The position numbers were made by a program, and so were the translations under genes. Shown here one piece after another: positions 1,437 through 15,083 of a stretch of 64,000 bases of DNA. Numbering within the stretch: position 1 is the first letter of the stretch; the number at the start of each line of letters is the position of its first letter. This DNA comes from Hericium rajendrae (taxonomy: Eukaryota; Basidiomycota; Agaricomycetes; Russulales; Hericiaceae): the NCBI GenBank assembly GCA_033439255.1, contig CM065882.1:2232001-2296000 (forward strand). Direction: 5' to 3'. A model generated the notes under the pieces. That model ran no database searches. It had not been told where the DNA came from and saw only the letters and a list, made by a program, of their open reading frames with translations.

Positions 1437-1475
1437 TTCTCCCCCTAACTGAAAATTTAGACTCTCCGTAGTCTA
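1437..1475 (-). promoter_or_regulatory. Polypurine tract beside the 3' LTR
   Basis: On the minus strand the sequence TTAGGGGGAGAA ends directly at the TGATG start of the 3' LTR. This is where the plus-strand primer of an LTR retrotransposon is expected. The same tract and about 25 bp before it recur imperfectly at 4908-4947, directly behind the pol stop codon. Confidence 0.75.
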
Positions 1476-1562
1476 ATCTGGAGCCCCACGAGGGATTCGG
1501 GCGCGGACATGCGTGAAGCCGATTGTGCGACGGCGCCCTGGGCGGGTGTGCTGCAGCAAGCC

Positions 1563-1569
1563 TATAAAA
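1563..1569 (+). promoter_or_regulatory. TATA box of the antisense module
   Basis: TATAAAA in CCTATAAAAGG lies 71 bp before the ATG at 1634, on the plus strand, opposite to gag-pol. It is followed by a pyrimidine-rich leader. Its position suggests the accessory genes have their own promoter and are not read from the LTR. Confidence 0.55.
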
Positions 1570-1633
1570 GGCATCTACGCCCCGGGAGGGCACTCAACTC
1601 CGAGCCATCTTCGCGCCCGGCAGTCTTGTCCCG

Positions 1634-2385
1634 ATGAACACCTTCCTTGATCAAGTCTTCCGCCAGAAAGTGACCTGGCTCCTTTCGGAGCGCTCGTGGA
1701 CCCCGCTTGATGCGTCCACGCTGTCCAGCGCGACGCGGTCATCCGGGAACGCGAGATCTGGGGTCGAGACCTCATGGTCGCCGTAGTACGTCCAAGCTCG
1801 TTTGCGGCGTTGTTGCGTACCTGCTAATTCTCGGGACTCCAGAAGGACTACCAGCGCTACGCTGGCGCCATCGACGTGGGTCTGCAGGATGACATCACGC
1901 AGATGTCGGACCACTTCCTGTCCGAGGCCGCCCGCGCGTCCGGGAAAGTCCGCCGTTGGCTCGACTGGGGTTGGTACCTCATGCCGTCGCTGAAGCGCGA
2001 GTGGCTCGATTCCCTGGAGCACCATCAGGTAGATGCCGCGGACCGCCTGTCCGTGGCCGAGTCCGAGCTGTGGGAGACGCGCCGCGCGGTGGCCCTGGAG
2101 GAAATCGATATCACCTGCCGCAAGTACCAGTATGACGTCATAGACGCGGAGGCCTGCAAGCGGGCTCTGGAGCCGTTGTTCGCCAGGCTGCATCAAGCGG
2201 TCTCCGCGCCGGAGTTGCCGTGGGAAGACGCCGGGGGAGAGGTGAGCGAGGATCCGCATGAGCTAGAGACGATGCACCGCCTAGTGGCGGAGGCACTCGA
2301 CTTGGCCGAGCTGCTGCGGCTTCCGCCCTACCGAGCAGACGAGGAGGGCGCCCGTGACAGGGTCGCGGGAGGGGCCGCGGATTAG
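1634..2385 (+). CDS. Antisense accessory gene 1 (hypothetical, inside the retrotransposon)
   Basis: Not recognised. The ATG at 1634 opens MNTFLDQVFRQKVTWLL. A second frame (VIREREIWGRDLMVAV) takes over near 1720, so a base seems to be missing between 1709 and 1732. An intron at 1786-1842 (GTACGT..CTCCAG, branch-like TGCTAAT) keeps the frame and leads to KDYQRYAGAIDVGLQDDI and on to a stop at 2383. The product, about 230 residues, is charged and predicted helical, with a Trp/Arg-rich stretch (VRRWLDWGWYLMPSLKREW) and an acidic, leucine-rich C-terminus. No signal peptide or membrane segment is seen. It lies 306 bp upstream of the second accessory gene, in the same direction. Exon-intron structure and coding-like composition support a gene. 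The role is unknown. Confidence 0.55.
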
Positions 2386-2690
2386 TATAGTACGATGTAC
2401 GCCGGTGGCGAGCATGCCTCGCCGCTCAATTGAACTATTCTGGTGCCAAGGCGCACTATGCTGTCTGTGGGACTTGCCCGTCGTTGAATAGGCTTCCTGT
2501 TCGCGAGACGCGGCTGAAATGACAAATGGGCGCCAATCGGGGCCTGAGATCCTGATTGAGTCCGAAGCGACAACTGTTTTGGCCGGGTGCCCGCGTCGCG
2601 GGCTTCTGCGCGAAGCTGCGAAGCTACCTGTACGCGGGGGCTTCTCCGGAGGCAATTCGCCAGGCGCTTCCGTCTTGTCGCGGAGTCCTT
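2386..2690. other. Spacer between the two accessory genes
   Basis: 305 bp with no convincing gene. A frame open from 2556 runs into the ATG at 2691 and reads plausibly (WPGARVAGFCAKL...), so the next gene may start upstream through an unrecognised exon. Confidence 0.4.
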
Positions 2691-4478
2691 ATGAACACTG
2701 AGTTGCGAGGCGACTCGCTCCTCAGCACCTCGTCTCCCATGGCTCGCGCATACGTCGACAACCGCCCCAAGGGTATTCAGGCCCTCGAACGCCTCTTCGG
2801 GTCAGGCCACCCGCGCGAAGGCGACCCCGGCAATGTCTGGGCAGAGTGGATCACCCAGGTTGCCAGTTGCTTGGTGAGTCCGCCGGCGCACGTTTTGCTT
2901 CCGTCCCCGCTGACCACCACTCCTGACAGGGCCCTCTCTTGAGGTCGAATTCGACCCACCTCGACAACGATTTCTTCCGTCGCGGGATCGCCGACGCCCG
3001 TGTAGTCTTCAGCCGCCTCGAGCTGAAGTCCGACCGCAAGTGGGGTGCCAAGGTGCTCGACGTCTTCGAGCCCCCCGAAGACCCGACCGAGACAGAGGAC
3101 CGGGAGACCGACGAGCTCGAGGAGAGCGACGACGACACCCTGCTCGCGGCCGCGACACCCAAGGGCAAGGGGCCCGCGCAGGTCGCGCCCGTTTCAACGC
3201 GCAAGACAGGGCCCCCTAAGGGCAAAAGGGCAGCCGCGCCAACCAACGAGACCCCGCAGGCCTCGTCTTCCACGCGCACCAGGGCTCCGTTGCCGCCCCG
3301 CTCGCAGACCGGTGAGCAAGACCGCCTCGAAGTCGCCGCCCTGTTGACCGCCACCGGTGTCGTAGACGCGTCCACCGAGCGGGACGTAGACCCGGCTCTG
3401 GACGCTCCAGTGTCCGCCGCGACTCGCGCGGCCAAGCGCAAGGCCGTAGCACCTGTCGAGGAGGAGGAGGCGGGGGACGAGATTGTCGAAGTGCCCCCGC
3501 CGGCGAAGAGGGCGCGTACGGGGCCGGCTGGCGCCGTCGCTGCGAACGAGGGGAAAGGGAAGGCCAAGGCCAAGGAGCCCGATGAGAAGTGGGGTCCGGT
3601 AAGTACCCATCTCCTCCACCTGTGCTCGACGCTAATTTTCTGTTTGCGTAGTGCCTGCCCGAGCAGTGGTGCACCGCGTGCATCAACGAGGGCAAGGAGT
3701 GCCTCCGCCGGGTCCTCCCTGCGAAGAACGTCGGGCGCGCGAAGCACGAGCGATGCTGCGAGTGCAGCGAGAAGCGCACTTCCTGCCTCGCCTGTGTCGA
3801 CCTCAACGCGCATCTGACGTGGATGGGTGCGCCCGTCGTGGATCCTGTTGCTGCGCGCGCCGCCACGGCTTCTTCTGGTCGCGACCAGGTGGCCGACTCC
3901 CCCGTGGTCTTGCCGGGGATACCAGACTCCGCGGGCGCGCTCCGTAAGTCGCTACCCCACTGTTGCTACGCGTTTGCTGACCGGGTGACCGTCCTACAGC
4001 CCCGTTCGAGGCGCTCGCATCTCGCCTTCCGTTCCCGGTCTCCGACGGCTTCCGTCCAGGGGCCTGGGACTACGTCGACCCCTACGCGTGCATTCCGCGC
4101 GATTCGTCGCTCCGCCGCACCCTGCTCACGGAGACCGAGCGGCAGCTCGTCGGTTTGTACCTCCAACGCATGTCGAACCACGGCCAGATCCTCGCCGTCG
4201 AGAGGCTCGTCACGGCCCTCTATACGGGCACGCGCGGCGAGTATATCGCGGCGGAGGCGGATGAAGAGGGCAAGGTCGCCAAGGACAAGCCTGCGGACGC
4301 CGCTAGCGACGCAGAGGAGGAGGCCGCGGCGAGTCCCACCGCGGGTCCGTCTTCGCGCCCGCTCGCGAGGGAGTCCCCCGTTCCTTCGGTCGAGGGTCCT
4401 GGTGAGCCGTTGGAGCCGGCGGCGGCTCCTGTCGCTGAGGTGGCCGTGTCAGAGGAAGTCGTGCCGGCTGACTCCTGA
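2691..4478 (+). CDS. Antisense accessory gene 2: nuclear-type protein with Zn2Cys6-like cysteine pattern
   Basis: Four exons: 2691-2873, 2930-3598, 3652-3943 and 4000-4478. All have GT..AG introns of 53-56 bp and no stop or frameshift, giving about 540 residues. The N-terminal third (HLDNDFFRRGIADARVVFSRL) is folded-looking. It is followed by a long acidic and basic disordered stretch with nuclear-signal-like AAKRKAV and PAKRARTG. Exon 3 opens with two half-clusters, C-x2-C-x6-C and C-x2-C-x6-C, separated by about 17 residues. This resembles the fungal Zn(II)2Cys6 pattern, but the linker is longer than the usual 5-12. The C-terminus is Ala/Pro/Glu rich. A DNA- or chromatin-related role is inferred from composition only. 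Sitting inside an LTR element on the opposite strand to pol, it is unlike the common gag-pol plan. Being fully open while pol is broken, it may be under constraint. Confidence 0.7.
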
Positions 4479-4907
4479 CGAGCGGGGCTGTCGCTTTGCG
4501 CGGGGAGGGAAAGACCCTCCCCTTTTAAATTTGCTATCTTGTTTTGTCGTCGTGGAAGTTGTCGCATACGTTTTGTGTTGCCCGGGCCTTAGGCCCGGCT
4601 TTTTACTATAGGTCGCTCGTAATCGGGACGCCGAGTCCTACTGTATCGTTGCTCCTGCCGAATGGGAGCCCATCTTGAAGTCTGAACCTGTGTGAATCTA
4701 AAGGGGAAAACCAGAAAGAAACAAAGTCGCCCCAGGCGATCTTGTCAGGGCCTATACGATTGGTGAAGGTAACATCTGAGTGGTGGATGGTATGAAGATC
4801 GCCCAAGGCGAGTTTGTCGAAATGCAAGTAACAATAGATTTATTTCGTGCGTGTGGGTATTGGTGGGGCGTCCAAGGTCGTCGACACGCTTTGACTGACG
4901 GCCTCTA
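4479..4907. other. 3' flank of the antisense module
   Basis: 429 bp without a gene, AT-richer than the module. It holds the GC hairpin at 4582-4598 and probably the 3' end of the accessory transcript. Confidence 0.5.
4582..4598. repeat. GC-rich hairpin followed by a T run
   Basis: CCGGGCC-TTA-GGCCCGG is a perfect 7 bp stem with a 3-base loop, followed by CTTTTTA. It sits about 105 bp after the stop of accessory gene 2. Confidence 0.5.
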
Positions 4908-4947
4908 CTCCCCCTAACTGAAAAATGGACTGCCCTCAGTCCTCCTC
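4908..4947 (-). repeat. Duplicated polypurine-tract region behind pol
   Basis: CTCCCCCTAACTGAAAA (4908-4924) is identical to 1439-1455, and the similarity continues imperfectly through the next 20 bases into the end of pol. On the minus strand it forms a second purine tract 25 bp after the integrase stop. The accessory module therefore lies between two copies of the pol/PPT junction. Confidence 0.75.
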
Positions 4948-6610
4948 GCTAGTCGAGTGGTCAGAGGACGCCGCGGGCGAACTTGGTCGGGACCTGTCGA
5001 ATTCGCCGAGGTCGCTGCCGGCGGTTTCGTCATCCGGGTCTGTGACGGTGGAGGCGAGTAAACGTTCAAACTGCTCGATGCCGACATCGAGGAAATCTTC
5101 CAATGGCGGGTGATCGAGGATGGTACGGGCGAAATACGGGACAACGCGGTAGGCTGCGGTGGGCCGGTCGAATAACGTACCGTCGAGCTCACACAAGAGG
5201 TAAGCACGCCCCTTGTTGCGGCCGAGGACGAGGTACGGGCCTAGGTAGCGCGGTTTGGTCTTCCGGGAATGGCTGGTGCTGTACGCGGAATTGCGCACAA
5301 GTACCAGTTCGCCGCGGCGAAAGTCAAAGTCGCGGATCGTGCGTTCATGTTCCAGTTCGAATTTTCGTGCTGCCTGGAGGCGGGCCTCGTAGACGCGGCT
5401 GTGAAGTCGCTGAAGGTCCTTTTGACGCTTCTGCAGGGCAAGAGCGCGGGAGGCGATCAGGTCGGTAGAGGACAAGATCGCCTCGGGCGGCGGTAGCAGG
5501 TAGGTGGCTTCCGCGATATCGAGCGGCATCAGGGGGTGCGTACCGGTTACCGCGAAGTATGGGGAACAGCCCATGCGCCGGCGGATGGTGATACGTTCCG
5601 ACCAGAACACGGAGTGGGCTGAGTAGCTCCAATTCTTCTCCACGCCGTCGGCGGCCTTGATCAGGGCTTGGCGTACGTCAAAGTGTGCACGCTCAGCGAT
5701 GCCGTTGGCTCTCGAGTTATAGCCCGAGATGCGGATATGCCGGACGTGGTACTTCTTTTCCAGCTGCGTCAAGGCTTTAACGAACGGGCCGCCGTTGTCG
5801 GACACGATTTCGGTGAGCATACCCCAGCGGCACAAGATGTCTTGGTAAATCCAATCAGCAATGTGCTCGCTGCGTTCTTTGCGCAGCATGCGCCATTCGG
5901 GAAAGTGGGACACCGAGCAGCGCCCTTGGACCAGGTATTGCATATTGTTGGATTTCGGCAGGTGCATGGTATCCATGTACATTTTCGCAAATAAAGGCGC
6001 GGGCACCGCAACCGTTGGCGGGATAAGAACTTTGCGGATCTGGAACGCTTGGCAAATATGGCACGAACGGACGAACCAAGCGACATCCGAGCCCATAAAA
6101 GGCCACCAGAAACGGACCGCGAGCAGGAGGGCGGTTGCGGCGACGCCACGGTGTCCCGCGGACTCGTGAGTCTCAATGAGAGCAGCCCAGCGGCCGGTCG
6201 GCGGGAGCACTAGTTTGTGCGCATTTGTCTTGTCGCGCTTCCAGAGGCGGCCACCTTTCATGAAGAAGTCGCGGCAATAACGCAGGAAGCGAGCGTATTC
6301 CCGGTCCGTCAGTCCGTCAGGGCGGATCGGATGGAGCAGGAAGTCGGTGACGGCGCGCAGTCGGGCATCCGTGAGGAGGGATTTTTCGGACCTTGGAACG
6401 TCTGCGTAGGACGCCAAGTGGTCTTGCGGAGGAGGCGTGACAAAATCGCCGGCGGCGACATTGGTCGAGATGAGCTGTTGGGCCAGCTGAGGGCGGTCGT
6501 GGCCGATCCGAGGCACATTTATTATGTGTACAAAGCCATAAGCACGGTCGACCCAGTCGTCGAAGTCGTCGTCGGGTTCGGGCGCATCATTGTCCTGGGG
6601 CGGCGCCGGG
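4936..6610 (-). CDS. Integrase part of pol
   Basis: About 555 residues that splice DNA copies of the element into the host genome. A zinc-binding HHCC region (HESAGHRG ... CHICQ) is followed by the catalytic core with D in YMDTMH, D in IVSDNGGPF and E in NGIAERAHFD. A C-terminal GPY/F-type module (GPYLVLGRNKGRAYLLCELDG, shifted slightly from consensus) follows. The tail is acidic and ends SEED. All catalytic residues are present. The frame differs from that of RT/RNase H, and the switch near 6605 needs one base more than is present. No chromodomain is seen. Its stop lies 11 bp from the duplicated purine tract core. Confidence 0.93.
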
Positions 6611-8640
6611 AGAGGCCATCCGGCCCATGCTTCTCGCCAGGGACGTGGACCAGGGTAAATTGAAACATGAGGATGCCGACGATCCACCGGTTCATGGACG
6701 CACTAGGGGCGAGATCGGGATTATTCAGCATGCCGGATATATAACGGGCGTCGACTTCGATAATCAGGTTGCGAACGCCAATGAGCCAGAGTTTGAGTGC
6801 GCGAAGGCTCCGGTATAGGCCATATAATTCCAGCTTTGGTTGGGAGAAGCGCGCCTCACGGTCGTTCAGGGCGATAGAGCCGAAGCGAGCATACCGGCGA
6901 ACTTTGGGGTCGTCCACATCCTGTTGACAGAGTAGGTAACCGATGGCAATATAGGAGGTGTCGACGCCCAGGATCACTGAGGCGGGAGACTCGTAATCTA
7001 TCGCGCGCAGGGCGGGTGATGCGAGTAGCGCTTGTTTAAGGTCTTCCTGCGCAGCCAACTGGTCTGGGCCGAACTCGAATGGGGTGTCCTTGCGCGTAAG
7101 CCGTACCAGATGGTGAGCACGTTTTGCAAAGTTCTTGATGAAGATGCGGGCCACGCCAATGGTCCCGAGGAAAGCGCGAACGTCCGAGAGGTCGGTACAA
7201 GGTTGCCAGTTGCTGACCTTGGCGAGGTTGCTGAGTTCTGGCAAACGGCCCGCCGGCGTGCATCTATGGCCGACGACGATGATTTCCGGCGCGCAAAGGA
7301 CAGTCTTTTTCCCTGAGAAGGTACCACCGCAATATTTCATGCGTTGGACGACACGGTTCGCGCCCTGGAAGTGTTCCCAGACAAAGCGACGAATACCTGG
7401 GTTCCAGGGTATAGTTTCAAAATTTCCACCGGGCAACTCGTAACGGGTAGCTGGGCCTTTAATGGGGACATCATCGATATAGGGCATGGTGACAGCTGGG
7501 ATTTCTGGCCGGAGGATTTCGGTAACGTCGTCGTGGAAGATAGGCACGGAGTTCGTCCACCCCATGGGCAGCGTAACGAGCCGTTTGGGCCCGAACGGGG
7601 TTTGGAACGTGGTCATGTCGCGGGACTCCTCCGCCAAGAGTCGCTCGTCGTAACCAACGTAGAGATCGAGGATGCCGCCGCAAGCACGCCCGGCGAACTG
7701 CTCGGCGAGCTGGTCGGTAAAAGGCGGGACGCCCGAGTGAGCGATGGTGACCTTGTTGAGTGGTTCGAGACTGTGCACAATGCGCAGGCTTGTACCATCC
7801 TTTTTGGTGACGCAGAACCAGCGTGAGCGATATGACGACGACGAAGGCTCATATACGCCGGCGGCGATCTTGGTACGGATAATCTCGCAGACCTTGTCAT
7901 GGATGCCTGGCGGGATTGGACGGTTCTTCAAGACCCAGGGGGTGTGCGGTATCACCGGCATAACCACTGAGGGGAAGAAGTCTTCGCGGAAATGTCCCCG
8001 CTCTGAATCGTCCCAGGCGAAGGCGGTATCGTGGAGACACATGAAATGGTGGAGTAGGTCGCGCTCGGAGGGCCAGAGGAAACCTTCTGGATGGGCGCGA
8101 TCGATAACCGCTTTTCTTTCTTCGGTATAGCGGGCGGTGGGAGCGAACGGGGGCGGATTGGGAGATAACTCCGGCAGGTCTTGGAGAGGGTCGCCTTTGA
8201 TGTTACGGAGAACCCGAAAACGCTCGGGGAGGTCCGTAAATACTGGGCGGACTTTTTGGGCAACTGGCTTGTATTTCTTTGCGGCGTAAGAGGCGACAGG
8301 AGGACCGGTATCCGTCGCGCCAGGAGGCGGCGGACCCGGGCGACCTTGCTTGGAAGCGGAAGCGGACTTGCAGGCTGTAGCGGAGAGAAAGGCGGACAAC
8401 AAATTAGATTTATCGGGGGCATCCGAAAGCGAAGGACCCCCCGGACTAGAGTCGAGAAGCGAGGCATCACAGGCATAGAGATAAAGAGATTGAAGATGAT
8501 CTTGGCATTTTTCTGGGTTTTCGGAACATTCTGGGGGTATAGCGGCATAAGCCGTGATTTGCGGCGTCTCCGAGTCGAAATCAACGATGAAGGCGACCTC
8601 TCCTTGATCTTCGATCAAATCATCGAAGCGCGAAAATCCT
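6611..8640 (-). CDS. Reverse transcriptase and RNase H part of pol
   Basis: Copies the genomic RNA into DNA. The RT core shows LRIVHSLEPLN, then FQTPFGPKRLVTLPMGWTNS, then the catalytic YIDD in MPYIDDVPIKGP. The RNase H region begins at VILGVDTSYIAIGYLL and ends with FTLVHVPGEKHGPDGLSRR. An N-terminal linker of about 170 residues is proline-rich and poorly conserved in appearance. The protease frame ends at a TGA overlapping this frame near 8615. Shifting one base near 8640 gives a smooth join (FSRFDDLIEDQGE), so a base is probably missing from a GGAGGA run. Confidence 0.93.
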
Positions 8641-9680
8641 CCTTTGCCGCGAGCGTATACTGAATGTCAGTGCGCGGGTGGGTGGGGATCGTGGCTGCTT
8701 CGCCGGTGTTTGGGTCGAAGATGGTGATGGTCTGTGTTTCATTGCGGTAGCTGCGCACGACTGACTCGGTAAGCACATCGAAGGGGCGTCTGAGTAGGAT
8801 ATCGTAGGCGGGCGACCGGAGGACGTGTATTTGGAGGTAGAGAACAATGTTGCCGAAGACTGCAGGCACGTTTCGGCACAGGCCCAGCGAGTCATCAAGT
8901 TCGCCGTTGGCGGATTGCATAGTGAGGATAATCGTGGGGTCATACGACAGGCCTAAGGTGTAGCAAACGCTCTCTGACATGGAGATGACCTGAGAACCTG
9001 GGTCCAAGATGCACTCGACCGGTTCTTGATGATCTATGAGTGCTGCAATAGAACGCAGCGCCGCAGACTCGCGCGAGACGATCAGGGGTTTAGGCTTTTC
9101 GTCCGGGCGGAGTTGCTTGAGGTACTGCTCGTAGGGATCCGGGAGGACGACAGCACCTTCCGGCGGCTCGGCGCACTGGTGCGAAAGGATAGATACTCGT
9201 GGATGAGGGGGCGAGGCCGGATGCTGCACACGGTCGCCTTCGGCGGGCTCGCTCGCGAACTGGATACCTGCAGCGAGCTCTACTTGACGCGCTGGCGAGG
9301 CCAGCTCCTCGACTGCATCTTCACCTGGCAGCTCGGAGAGCAGGTCAGTCTCGTTAAGGACTTCCAACAGGTTCTGTCCCGCCACCGGACGCGTGTGACG
9401 CCGTGAGACTGCCTCCTTGTATTTTGCGCGTAGTGCAGGAGCCAGGGACCAGAGCTCGCCCTGGGTGACCTCGATAGGGAGGGACATGGCGCGCGCGAAC
9501 ACGCGGTCCAGTACGTCTTGCCCGACTGAGTCTTGCGCACGACGGGTTGGGCCCGTCTCTTCGACTACTTCGATCACTGGGACTTGCGCGGGCCTTGCAC
9601 CGTCGCGGGCTCTGGCAAATGGGTGGATGGGACCATCAGGGTCGCGGAGGTCGTCGCGCACCGCAGGTTGAGATAGAAGG
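8641..9680 (-). CDS. Retropepsin-like aspartic protease part of the polyprotein
   Basis: Cleaves the Gag-Pol precursor. The active-site loop reads VECILDPGSQVISMS, that is D-P-G rather than the textbook D-S/T-G. I recall D-P-G as common in this group of basidiomycete gypsy elements. The flap side has MQSANGELDDSLGL, and the second conserved block reads AYDILLRRPFDVLT, where LLGRPFD is usual. A long acidic linker precedes the domain. The frame joins Gag through a switch near 9680 at a run of six C (minus strand), which could be a missing base or a real frameshift signal. Confidence 0.85.
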
Positions 9681-11634
9681 TGGGGGGACGTCTCGTTCCG
9701 GGCCTGGGGCCGGTGAAGCTTGCGGAGGGGGCAGGGACGCCCGCGGCGGCTCTGGTTCGTCCTCGATGGTCGGGCGCGGCGGCGCACGGGGCAATCGTGG
9801 AGGGGCTGGTTGGCGGGCAGGCTCTTCCATCCTGCGAGCTCGTTCCAACGCCCGGTTAGCTCTATCACGGCTGGCCGCGGCATTGGGTGGGGGCACAACC
9901 GAGGCGTCCTTCAACTGGTATAACCGCCGTAGCTCGCCCTCCAGGCTCTCGATCCGCGCGTCTGTGGTGAGCTGGTACAACCCTGCCTGGACCTGGGTAT
10001 AGGGGGACGCGGTGGTCTGAGCGTATGCCGGCGCGACGCGATAGCCGTAGGGAGGGAGCCCCGCCCGCGGCGAACTTGCCTGGTGGGTACCGGCTACACC
10101 CATCATAAGCTGACCCGTGGCTCGCTGATTGGGGTTCATACGGTGGTATTCGTCGATCCGTTCGGCCATAGTCGCGCCTGGGGGTCCTTGCGGGAGCAAG
10201 CCCCAGAGGGTAAGACCATCTTGCCTTGGACGTCCTTCTTGCACTTGCCGGCGGCCATGTATTCCCGGGCTGTCATGCATTCGCGCACGAAATGCCCCAC
10301 GTTCCCACAGAAGTTGCACTGATCCGACCCCATTCGCCCGCGCATTGGCGCGCCTTGATTACCTCCGGAGACCATCGGTTGACGCGACGGCTGCTGCGCG
10401 CTCCTCAAGAGGATATCGGCCAGTGACGCTAACTGCTCACTCTTAATCTGGATAGTCGTCCCTGAGCCTGCATCGGCGGTTGATGACGACGCGGTGGCTT
10501 GAGTTGACGACGGTCCACGCAGGTACGGGTCGGGGGTGATGGCAGTGCCATACATGCACCACTCTGCAGCCCTATAGACGTCGTTGATCGGGTGCGGATC
10601 GTCGGGATGGTGATCAGGCTTGGTAAGAGCAAGGCGGTCCTCTACCCGCAGGCGAAGACGTTCGGGGAGCGCCGCCAAAAACCAGCGTTGTTCCTCATAT
10701 CGGAGATGCGGTTCTTGCCTTTCAGGTAGCGCGTGATGACCGTGAACTCGCGCGAGAACGCACCAAGTTCGCCGACGGAACTGAGGGTGGACTCGGCAGT
10801 TCGGTGGACGAGTGACTCCAAATCTTGACGCGAAAAGGTATTCTCCTTAGCCGAGCCCGGGTAGAGTTCGTGGATAGCTTTCTTGAATTCGTCCCAAGTG
10901 CCGGCGGCGTACTTGGCCTCGGACCGCCACAGCTCTTGTGCGTCAACGTCTGAGAGGAGACGGACCGCATGACTCTTTTTCTCCGCGTCATCTGCCACGG
11001 AGGAACGCTGAAAACAAAATTCGAGATCGAGGAAGTAACGGCCCAGCTCGCGGGGGGAGTTGGTGTCAAACTTGGGAGCACCGCTCTCGCCGCGCATAGG
11101 CATGGAGGGGGGCGGCATGACTGGTTGGATACTTGGTGGCCTGGGGAAGGGGAAACGTGCAGGGGCTAGCGGGCTGTGTTGTTGAGTAGGAGAAGGGGGA
11201 CGGGGGGTAGCAGGGAAAGTCGCCTGGTGCGGCGTTGTCCTAGGACCCGCGGTAGCAGAGGGGCCGGCAAGGGGTCGCGGCGCCGGAGTTGGCGATACGG
11301 GTGGAGTAGGAACGATGAAGGAACGCTCGAGCTCGGGAATTTCGAACTCTTCGTCGATGGGAGTAAGGGGACTAGTGGGAGTTGGAACCGGCGGGAAAGG
11401 TGACGGTAGGTCGGGGGAAACTTGCTGAGGGTCCTGAGTCGCAACACGGACTTCTTGTTCGAGGGTACGATCTGGATTCGACCGTGCGCTACTCCTAGTA
11501 CGACGCGGCTCTATTTTGAGTATGGAACCCTCGCGGTGGGCTCCAAAATGATGTGTGGACCCTGGGAATGGAGGCAGCAGCCAAAACCAAAACCAACAGA
11601 GTACCGGGGGGTGCGAGGGGACCAAGTATCTCAA
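9681..11634 (-). CDS. Gag (capsid and zinc-knuckle nucleocapsid)
   Basis: Forms the particle and binds the RNA. A Pro-rich N-terminal segment is followed by a Ty3-type capsid region (RYFLDLEFCFQRS ... WDEFKKAIHELYPGS). A single CCHC knuckle, CNFCGNVGHFVREC, and a coiled, Pro-rich C-terminus follow. The frame shifts at about 10685 (T run, GF-LAALPER) and about 10195. The reading frame is open from a Met at 11634, 85 bp inside the 5' LTR, straight through the primer-binding site. The first Met inside the internal region is at about 11118. The true start is therefore uncertain. If translation begins in the LTR, the first 28 residues are LTR-encoded and hydrophobic. Confidence 0.85.
11530..11545 (-). 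promoter_or_regulatory. Primer-binding site candidate
   Basis: On the minus strand the 5' LTR ends CCACACATCA, then TTT, then TGGAGCCCACCGCGAG. It starts with the TGG expected to pair with a tRNA CCA end. I could not match it to a particular tRNA. Confidence 0.6.
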
Positions 11635-12568
11635 GAGGGGAGCGCCGAGACGTGTAGCTGACGGGTGATCGTACTACGGGTAGGGGAGCAAGGCCGCGGA
11701 GGGCGAGCTTGCTGCGCGCGGGCGACTTCCGACACGGCTCTGCTAGGGACGATGACGGTACGACAAGACTCACGGGTCTTAGGTGATACGGCTTGTAGAT
11801 AACGGCACGGCGACGAGTACGACGAATATGATGAGCGACACGAGAAAGTGAGAAGAGCTACGTCTGAGACGTGCTTAGAGACTGGGGTGAGAACGTCAAA
11901 CGGCGGGCTTTGTGAGATCTGAGCTCTGAGGGGAAAAAGGCAGATTCCGTTCCCATTCTCTAAGTCAGTAGCTACGGTACAAATGGGCAAGGCCGCCTCT
12001 GGCGGCCCGGCGCGACTCCCTACGACAACCTCCCGCTGACCGACCCAATCTCCAATTCCTTCCTGATCCTGCCTGCTCCGGGTCCCTTGGCGAGTGGAGT
12101 CGTTGCGACTCGGCCCGTGCAGGGCAGAGGGCGTGCGCGTGGTACGAACGAATCAAAGGTGCCGCCTTACAACGTCGCCCGGGGCGTGCGTCGGGAACGG
12201 CGGGCACGTCGAGCTTGAATGGCTGGGATGACATCAGTAGCGCACTGTCGCGGGCGCCGCTCGTGATCCGGGGGCGTGTGGGCGTTCGAGGGCGCGTTGA
12301 TTGAGCCGGCTGGTTCTCTGGGCGCGCTTCTGTTCCTGTGCCGCTGACTCGTCCGGCCGGTTGATCTCCTGCCCGTTCGGTGCATCGGACCACGGGACGC
12401 CGGCTTTAGTCCAACCCGGTCGGTCCCGAACCCGTGGGGGCGCTTGTCCTGTGCGGGGAGCAACGTCACGGTGGGCGGACTTGGTGCGGCTGAGGTGAAG
12501 TGAAGCGGGACGGGCAAGGAGGCGGGGAGTGGGCAATGCCGTTGCAAGGCGCGCTAAAGGGCGCATCA
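11549..12568 (-). repeat. Right LTR (5' LTR in element orientation)
   Basis: 1020 bp, TGATG...CATCA. It differs from the left copy by A at 11576, 11807 and 12468 and by one extra G at about 12182. It should contain the promoter for gag-pol. I see no clear TATA box on the minus strand. Confidence 0.95.
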
Positions 12569-12572
12569 GCGC
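12569..12572. repeat. Target-site duplication, right copy (GCGC)
   Basis: Directly follows the CATCA end of the right LTR and matches 414-417. Confidence 0.75.
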
Positions 12573-15083
12573 TGGGCCACGACTTCGTCCTTCGGCGGAA
12601 CATTCGCGTGGCTATCGCTCGCTTGCCGGAGCCACCGGAATTTATAGCATCGGCCGAGGGCTCCCACCATCTCCGCCTCGTCGACCACATTGCCAAGCTG
12701 TGGAACTCGCTTCTCGACATGCGACAACGCCGCGGTCACAACACCACTGGTCTGATTCGCCTCCCTCACTTCCCGAGTGTCGCGGCGAGTGGCAAGTCCT
12801 TTGGGGTTGTCAGATCTTTTGACACCGAATCGTACGGAGGCCTGCTCAACACAAACGAAGATGACCTGGAAGTGGACTTGATGGACATGATTGACCAGAG
12901 TGAGATTGACATCCAATCAGTAAGCAGCCAGCTGCAAATCGAGCCGGATCTTTTTCTTCGCGAGGGTGCAGCCTCAGTAGGCACCATCATCAAGAATGCC
13001 GTCGCTGCCCAATCTGGCGCAGCGCCAAGCGTGTCGCCTTCATGCACGTTCCCCATCACCGTCATCGACCCGGCACTCCTCGACGTACACCAACCATTGA
13101 CGTCCAACTTTCCAAGCGCATACATCTCGGCACCCGTCGACTCGGAGGATGCGCCGACGCTCGGAGAAAGTTCCCAGAGTAGGAAGCACGCTGGCGCTGG
13201 GTCGTCTTCACGTGAGGGCACCGACTCGAGCGATGTGGTGGTGAGTGCCGCTCTGTGCTGCTGCTCTGTGCTGCCACTTCTGGCGCGGTGCTGACTTTTC
13301 CTGCTGCCAGGACCTGACTCTCGACGATGAGTGCGAGCGTGAAGCCCGACTCGTCAAGCGCTTGGGGAAGCAGCCGCTTCGCGATGCTCCTGCTGAAGCC
13401 CATCTGAAGAGGAACAGGGCCGAGGATGCTGGAGCCCAGGCTGAGCATGGACAACAGCCGGTCAAGAAAGCCCGCTTCGCTGAGAGCGAGGCTGTCAACA
13501 TCCGGGTACGTTGTGCCCTGTCCTTGAACCTCATTCATGCGTTGAGATTCGATGTCCCAGCAATCGACCATCGTCGTGCGGGGCACGCAGCTCGGGCGCA
13601 CCGCTGGTGCCAGCGGTGCCGTCGACGACTTCTTCAAGTGCTACAAGCCACCCTCGCAAGGGCGACCAGCCACCAGCGCGGCACCATCCAACTGCAAGTC
13701 CCCGCTGCCGACCACGCAAGGCCCGACCGCGTCCCCCGGTGCTGCTTCGCCCGTCAGCACTCCAGCCCATGCAGATGCCACCAACGAACCTGCAGCAGCA
13801 CCCGCCCACAGCGCGCAAGCAGGAGCGGCACGCAATGGTGCACCCACATGCACGCAGAGAGGTGCCGCACGCGCACGCAACGGCGCTGCCACAAGTGTGC
13901 CAAGGGGTGCCGCATGCACACGTAACGGCGCCGCTTCAAGCGCACAGAGCGGAACAGCAGGCAATGGCGCCGCCCCATCGTCATCACCAGCGAACATGGC
14001 ACTGCCCCCTGCGGCTGCGCAAACAGCATCCCTCATGTCCCCGCTCCCCCTTCCGTCATCGCCGGCAGGTCTCACACGCACGGAGCGCATGTGGTCGTTC
14101 CTGTCAGCGATGGATGCACACTTGATGGTCATCGAGCGCGGCACGGAGTACCTCGTCTTCATGGAGGTACGCGAAGTGCAACAATGGTCGATGGCCTCAA
14201 TGACGCCACGCAAGTGGGTGGTCGCGACGCAAATCTACAACGAGAAGCTGCACGAGAAGTACAACAAGTACAACCTCCTGCCGCCGGTCTTAAAGCACCC
14301 TCGCGCGCTCGTGGATCACCTCGATGAAGTCGAGGACAAGATCATCGCTCGCATCCTCAAGGATGACTACATGAGCCGGCCCATTGATGGTGAGGGTTTC
14401 CGATCTTTCTTCTTATTGAGTTGTTGCTAAGCCCTTCCCTCACCAATGCAGGCCGAGAGCCCACGGATATCTTCTGGAGAAGGCACTGCCATGCAGTGCC
14501 GGGTTTGCTCAGAGATGGTGCAACACCCAAGGTACGTCGTCGCCCGACCTTTTGCAATGCATTTTCAGCTGACGCTGTGCATCACACGCTGCAGCACCGG
14601 CCGCCGAAATGCGGGCGCTGCCGCATCCTCAAGTACACGACCGGTGTCCGCGGCGCCTCGAACCACCGGCGCGACTGCTGTTCGGACGGTGTGCGCTCGC
14701 GCATCGAAGGCGACAAGCTGCCGCCGTGGCCGCAGCCCCCGGGCATCTTCGAGAATGGCACCACATTCAGTGTGCCTGCTTTCTTCAATGCCATATGCAA
14801 GCTGTACGACCACACCGTGCTGCACCGGGTGCACGCCGTCGAGTTCCCGCTCGAGTACCAGGCCTTCATGGTCTTCCTCATGGACCGTCTGATCATCCGC
14901 GACGACGGCGCCGTGCTCTTCCCACTGTACGAGCACACCACAAATATCAAGCCCGAGCCCCAGCAGCTGCCGCCGGGCCTGCTCGTCGAGTTCTCAGGCG
15001 CAAGGTGCCTCAAGGTGCCGCAGTTGTCGCACGACATCGGTCCCGTCGCTCGCCCTGTAGCGAGCTACCTCTCGGTGCCACGA

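Follow-up and report, generated by a model that had tools for sequence, protein, structure and literature searches.

How does a retrotransposon come to carry spliced genes on the strand opposite its gag-pol, and do such genes belong to the element? The question arises in a stretch of 64,000 nucleotides (nt) of the basidiomycete Hericium rajendrae (NCBI GenBank assembly GCA_033439255.1, contig CM065882.1, positions 2,232,001 to 2,296,000), which we call the window and in which all plain coordinates below are given. The window contains a Ty3/gypsy element with long terminal repeats (LTRs), and the original prediction had placed between its pol region and its 3' LTR a module with a TATA box, a two-exon gene (gene 1), and a four-exon gene (gene 2), all antisense to gag-pol. 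This arrangement was confirmed and is kept across 30 copies. We regard it as fairly probable that the module is an integral antisense accessory unit of a Hericium Ty3/gypsy element and that gene 2 encodes a nuclear, probably zinc-binding regulator acting on the element.

The 3.4-kb module occupies the space between pol and the 3' LTR (1437 to 4907) and reads on the plus strand, with gag-pol on the minus strand. Its TATA box (1562 to 1569) has the sequence CTATAAAA in 29 of the 30 aligned copies. Gene 1 consists of exon 1 (1634 to 1785), a 57-nt intron (1786 to 1842), and exon 2 (1843 to 2385); its product is 231 amino acids long as read in copy L002. The donor of the gene 1 intron was picked by reading frame, and GT at 1786 is present in all 30 copies (GTACGT in 28), as is the AG at the other end. 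A slowly evolving spacer (2386 to 2690), possibly holding the gene 2 promoter, leads to gene 2, whose four exons were placed at 2691 to 2873, 2930 to 3598, 3652 to 3943, and 4000 to 4478. They encode 540 amino acids and are separated by introns of 56, 53, and 56 nt; all four introns of the two genes thus fall between 53 and 57 nt. Exon 2 holds the N-terminal part and a charged linker with basic runs that, by eye, resemble nuclear signals; exon 3 holds a cysteine cluster (within 3652 to 3795), and exon 4 a WDYVDPYA region and an acidic tail. The 3' region of gene 2 (4479 to 4907) contains GC hairpins before T/A-rich stretches, of which a scan of the consensus found 4 over 1437 to 4940 versus 2.6 expected by shuffling. 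Both ATGs and all six splice dinucleotides of gene 2 are intact in 30/30 aligned copies. Among older copies, L051, L054, L055, L056, L057, and L058 keep every splice site that they cover, and L052 and L053 each lack one of the six gene 2 sites. Because of this conservation of start codons, splice sites, and TATA box, together with the frame-specific purifying selection described below, the module is more than a set of chance open frames.

That other copies of the element should carry the same module, as the prediction implied, was borne out. A DNA search with the module gave at least 42 matches (40 of 78 candidates were scored, so the counts are lower bounds), and an integrase search gave 40 matches (40 of 47 candidates scored), 34 of which extend to the end of pol. 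Among the matches listed, the module lies within 600 nt of 29 of these 34 complete pol ends. Three of the remaining five have module pieces farther off on the same contig, within 60 kb, an arrangement compatible with later insertions, and the other two have no module match within 60 kb among the matches listed. Counted from the side of the module, there are 44 pieces (40 of the 42 DNA matches, two small fragments being left out, plus four exon 4 pieces); 15 have no adjoining complete pol end among the matches listed, and 12 of these 15 are partial. At one locus (C12:950033-957574), two LTRs delimit a short element, about 7.5 kb long, that contains a partial module and has no listed pol match between the LTRs; it is possibly non-autonomous. 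A tree of the copies was not used: L029 and L030 were left out of it, and the branches of L017, L025, and L027 were very long, probably because their pol part includes unrelated sequence.

Evidence on whether the proteins matter comes from substitutions among the copies. Copies in general differ chiefly by CpG transitions. Substitutions were split into CpG and non-CpG changes, and selection was expressed as the nonsynonymous/synonymous (N/S) ratio to the neutral expectation. Between the window and eight older copies, 104 of the 174 non-CpG changes in gene 2 are nonsynonymous, with 120.5 expected (ratio, 0.66; p=0.004). CpG changes in the same gene are neutral (211/372 nonsynonymous, 218.4 expected; ratio, 0.92), and the two shifted sense frames give non-CpG ratios of 1.34 and 1.23. 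Taken singly, older copies give 0.52 (L051, p=0.001), 0.49 (L052, p=0.001), and 0.59 (L053, p=0.027). Across L051 to L054, the non-CpG change rate is 0.029 at first, 0.035 at second, and 0.059 at third codon positions, compared with 0.069 in introns. By residues, the gene 2 ratio is 0.65 for 1 to 115, 0.67 for 116 to 280, and 0.53 for 281 to 455, the part with the cysteine cluster and WDYVDP. Among 29 recent copies, gene 2 variants common to at least two copies give 0.43 (n=35, p=0.012), and the corresponding integrase variants give 0.19 (n=9, p=0.013) in 23 copies, L017, L019, L025, L027, L028, and L029 having been dropped from the integrase test. Singletons give 0.83 (n=110) in gene 2 and 0.59 (n=20, p=0.17) in integrase. 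We read these patterns as those of a transposing lineage that maintains the gene 2 protein while dead copies drift. Of the two origins that the original prediction had offered, an element-encoded factor is supported by this selection. The differences of L051 to L058 from the window are mainly CpG transitions, in line with methylation-driven decay.

Several results weigh against this account of the module. One antisense frame of gene 2 is also low in the non-CpG comparison (0.75, p=0.033; the other antisense frames give 1.24 and 1.11), which we take to be a by-product of the codon-position pattern. Constraint is absent from the last 85 residues (456 to 540), where the ratio is 1.0 (n=30), and the small set of gene 2 variants common to at least five copies gives 1.13 (n=6). 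For gene 1, selection on exon 2 is weak (0.56, n=33, p=0.058), in the same direction as in gene 2. Neither gene product has a Pfam match even at E=10, and the structure predicted for the one protein relative of gene 2, from Hericium alpestre, is unusable (mean predicted local distance difference test score, 37), so that it is sequence pattern from which a regulator role of gene 2 would be read. The gene 2 frame is uninterrupted between its start and stop codons in 15 of the 30 copies and broken in the other 15. Three frame-changing deletions in the exon 2 linker are common to 8, 3, and 6 copies. A 2-nt deletion and, about 120 nt later, a 1-nt deletion are found each alone or in combination, as if through recombination between copies or assembly error; two of the three double carriers are open again. 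None of the three deletions is found in L051 to L054, where all the sites are covered. Assembly error may contribute, because one of the sites is a homopolymer of six bases; if it does not, elements whose gene 2 is broken have been copied, perhaps with help in trans. Gene 2 may accordingly be complemented in trans or dispensable in cis, or the breaks may in part be assembly error.

The cysteine cluster itself is well kept. It has the form C-x2-C-x6-C-x17-C-x2-C-x6-C, with each cysteine present in 35 to 36 of the 36 copies that have letters there, and it is also kept in the H. alpestre protein. Zn2Cys6 (Gal4-type) domains follow the pattern C-x2-C-x6-C-x5-16-C-x2-C-x6-8-C, the first half of which includes basic residues. 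The original prediction had called the gene 2 pattern Zn2Cys6-like; the pattern is real, and membership in the family was not supported, the loop being 17 residues long, a single basic residue (K) standing between the second and third cysteines, and Pfam giving no match. A PDB search with the cluster likewise gave no match. The gene 2 product is possibly zinc-binding, to judge from this spacing of cysteines.

Could the module be a host gene pair, captured once and carried passively, kept merely by being inside an active element? Its introns and its own TATA box do resemble an ordinary fungal gene pair, and the broken gene 2 reading frames in half of the aligned copies would suit a passenger. 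The purifying selection in the correct frame of gene 2 speaks against it, as does the search for a progenitor. A genome search with gene 2, in which 80 of 141 candidates were scored, gave at least 117 matches with identities down to 49%; a standalone host version did not appear among those listed, and protein searches, which detect just relatives having short exact words in common, returned H. alpestre EWM64_g5559 as the sole relative of gene 2 and none for gene 1. In the protein-level comparison EWM64_g5559 continues without a break from exon 2 into exon 3 and from exon 3 into exon 4, as though spliced at both junctions. The most diverged gene 2 match fetched, L051 (61 to 64% amino acid identity), was considered as a host gene; it is more probably a decayed copy, because both of its ends are missing, its CpG changes are neutral, and its non-CpG ratio of 0.52 against the window can stem from the element lineage. 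The captured host regulator of the original prediction therefore found no positive support, and we consider a passive host pair unlikely.

A different possibility is that the antisense transcript matters in itself, pairing with the genomic RNA and limiting copy number or feeding small RNA silencing, with the proteins secondary. The orientation of the module suits such a role, which an excerpt of PMC7264820 discusses as a mechanism for plant antisense open reading frames (ORFs), and so does the slow evolution of the spacer, where the non-CpG rate is 0.025 versus 0.069 in the introns (four older copies). A role of the transcript alone predicts neither amino acid selection specific to one frame nor retention of the gene 2 splice dinucleotides in 30/30 copies, and we think it improbable as the whole explanation.

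We therefore return to an antisense accessory unit of the element, and the borders of the module bear on how it might be carried. Two 17-nt repeats on the minus strand, which we take from their position in the element to be polypurine tracts (PPTs), bracket it. The outer PPT (1439 to 1455) stands beside the 3' LTR and is exact in 28 of the 30 copies, with one change each in L021 and L030. The inner PPT (4908 to 4924), 11 nt past the pol stop, is an exact copy of it, conserved without change in 26 of the 30 aligned copies; in L017, L025, L027, and L029 the site holds a different sequence. The original prediction had not mentioned this second tract. Genome-wide, the exact 17-mer is present 81 times, and the reversed sequence does not occur. 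Among the matches listed, the inner PPT adjoins all 34 complete pol ends, and at 25 of them a second exact 17-mer lies 3447 to 3519 nt off, on the far side of the module. A copy on C10 that is 12 to 14% diverged in gene 2 keeps both PPTs exact. A search next to the inner PPT for the remnant of an LTR gave nothing. Because RNA hairpins by the two tracts score very differently (inner z=-3.17, outer z=-0.14), no shared RNA structure is claimed. At C11:1486689-1487842, next to one of the two complete pol ends that have no listed module match within 60 kb, just 1137 nt separate the two PPTs, likely through deletion of most of the module. At C3:1705770-1705991, next to an LTR, stands a doubled PPT accompanied by a 99-nt fragment of an LTR end, perhaps a strand-transfer error of reverse transcription.

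Lentiviruses have a central PPT, and Ty1 has a second PPT. The present element resembles them in having a second exact PPT inside the element and differs in the place of this PPT, which follows the pol stop and, with the outer PPT, encloses an antisense module. The inner PPT probably serves to prime an extra plus strand over the module. A bolder extension, which we offer as a speculation with rather low odds, is that two PPTs turn the space behind pol into a gene cassette: priming at the inner PPT would make the module a DNA segment of its own, and intron-bearing antisense genes could be kept, dropped, or swapped between PPTs while gag-pol stays unharmed, and could serve the whole family by expression in trans. 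That the module is instead a separate mobile unit inserted into the PPT, with the 17-nt repeat as its target-site duplication, is very improbable: the exact direct repeat and the 15 of 44 module pieces without an adjoining listed complete pol end (12 of them partial) would suit it, yet neither gene has a transposase-like domain, and the repeats sit at the expected places of PPTs and remain exact even in the diverged C10 copy, which points to function and not to a scar.

For the accessory unit we propose the following mechanism. A promoter just inside the 3' LTR would drive transcription antisense to gag-pol, and genes 1 and 2 would be spliced from this antisense transcript. The genomic RNA that encodes gag-pol would hold only the complements of the introns, which would be invisible to the spliceosome, and the module would be copied with its introns at each transposition. 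The original prediction had proposed that the introns survive in this way, because the genomic RNA carries just their complement, and the retention of all three gene 2 introns in 30/30 copies fits the idea. The inner PPT behind pol would prime the extra plus strand across the module. The gene 2 product, with its cysteine cluster, basic nuclear-signal-like runs, and acidic tail, would be a nuclear regulator, and would most likely act in trans on the expression or integration of the element itself.

The element that carries the module has the anatomy of Ty3/gypsy. Its 3' LTR (418 to 1436) and 5' LTR (11549 to 12568) are 99.6% identical, begin with TG and end with CA, and are flanked on both outer sides by GCGC, a short target duplication. 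The insertion is young, because the LTRs differ by three substitutions and one indel. On the minus strand between them lie the N-terminal part of gag (10642 to 11673, a stop-to-stop open frame that runs into the LTR and has no Pfam match), the gag nucleocapsid part with a CCHC knuckle (10136 to 10846; PF00098, E=0.00025, above its cutoff), an aspartyl protease part (8615 to 9910; PF13975, E=0.00094), a reverse transcriptase (RT) and RNase H part (6522 to 8666; profile and RT matches), and the integrase part of pol (4936 to 6702; PF17921, E=1.2e-14). The protease and RVT_1 (E=0.0075) profiles fall under their curated Pfam cutoffs. The RT matches the Ty3-G polyprotein 7q5b with E=6.7e-17, the top match being 4ol8 (E=8.6e-18). 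The LTR pair with its duplication, the order of protease, RT/RNase H, and integrase, and the Ty3-like RT identify the element as Ty3/gypsy; other gypsy families in the same genome have 47 to 50% RT identity to it. A Pfam profile search found no chromodomain match in the element.

The prediction had called the element complete; the window copy is nevertheless not fully intact. Its pol is split over two frames, whereas in several other copies a single frame of up to 1250 amino acids is present. Compared with the other 29 copies in the alignment, exon 1 of its gene 1 differs by one indel from every one and reads out of frame relative to 28. Some indels in the copies may be sequencing errors, because the assembly was apparently built from nanopore and Illumina reads. 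An excerpt of the genome report of H. rajendrae NPCB A08 gives both read types, a size of 46.77 Mbp in fifteen pseudochromosomes and four contigs, and 1462 Gypsy-LTRs (PMC10608310). At and beyond the 5' LTR (12494 to 14430) there are long open plus-strand frames with no Pfam match above cutoff.

Zhao et al. (Virology, 2011) reportedly described Boty-like elements with an antisense gene, brtn, in Botrytis cinerea. Antisense genes behind pol are of a known kind, represented by Boty brtn, maize Grande, and Retand, and the present element shares with these an antisense coding region behind pol in most copies (the 29 of 34 noted above), here with selection on gene 2. In excerpts of the cited sources, plant elements and Boty of Botrytis are reported to have antisense ORFs in the stretch that separates pol from the 3' LTR (PMC7264820), and the role of such genes in plant and fungal elements is described as unknown (PMC7264820; PMC11963269). 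Boty, as described there, is a fungal LTR element with one additional antisense gene in this position (PMC7264820), and a Monilinia transcript resembles BRTN (PMC5987419). The present element differs from brtn, set against it by description, in having two genes, four introns, and bracketing PPTs, and while a Boty-like element is described with a chromodomain, no match to one was found here. Grande gene23 of maize is an accessory gene that lies antisense behind pol, ahead of the 3' LTR, and has its own promoter and a nuclear protein (PMC7264820), features that are predicted for the present module too; Grande is a plant element, whereas gene 2 here has three introns and a cysteine cluster, known from its sequence. 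Retand resembles the present element in its long region between pol and the 3' LTR, its antisense ORFs in recent copies, and a proposed DNA-binding regulator, with antisense ORFs that carry a likely DNA-binding domain, TRP28, in 97% of clusters of recently active elements (PMC11963269, in part). Its lineage marker TRP28/Transposase_28 was absent from gene 1 and gene 2 in the Pfam search at E=10. Among titles and abstract openings, with subscription papers mostly outside the scope, we found no multi-intron antisense gene pair between two PPTs. What is new here is the combination of two genes, introns in both, frame-level selection on gene 2, and two PPTs around the module.

The present family comprises roughly 40 copies whose introns provide an inner neutral yardstick, and selection is evident in it on the protein frame, beyond the transcript. 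Were an intronless copy of the module to turn up, it would show that reverse transcription had acted on the antisense RNA. The doubled PPT, finally, suggests a concrete route by which gene modules may be added behind pol.

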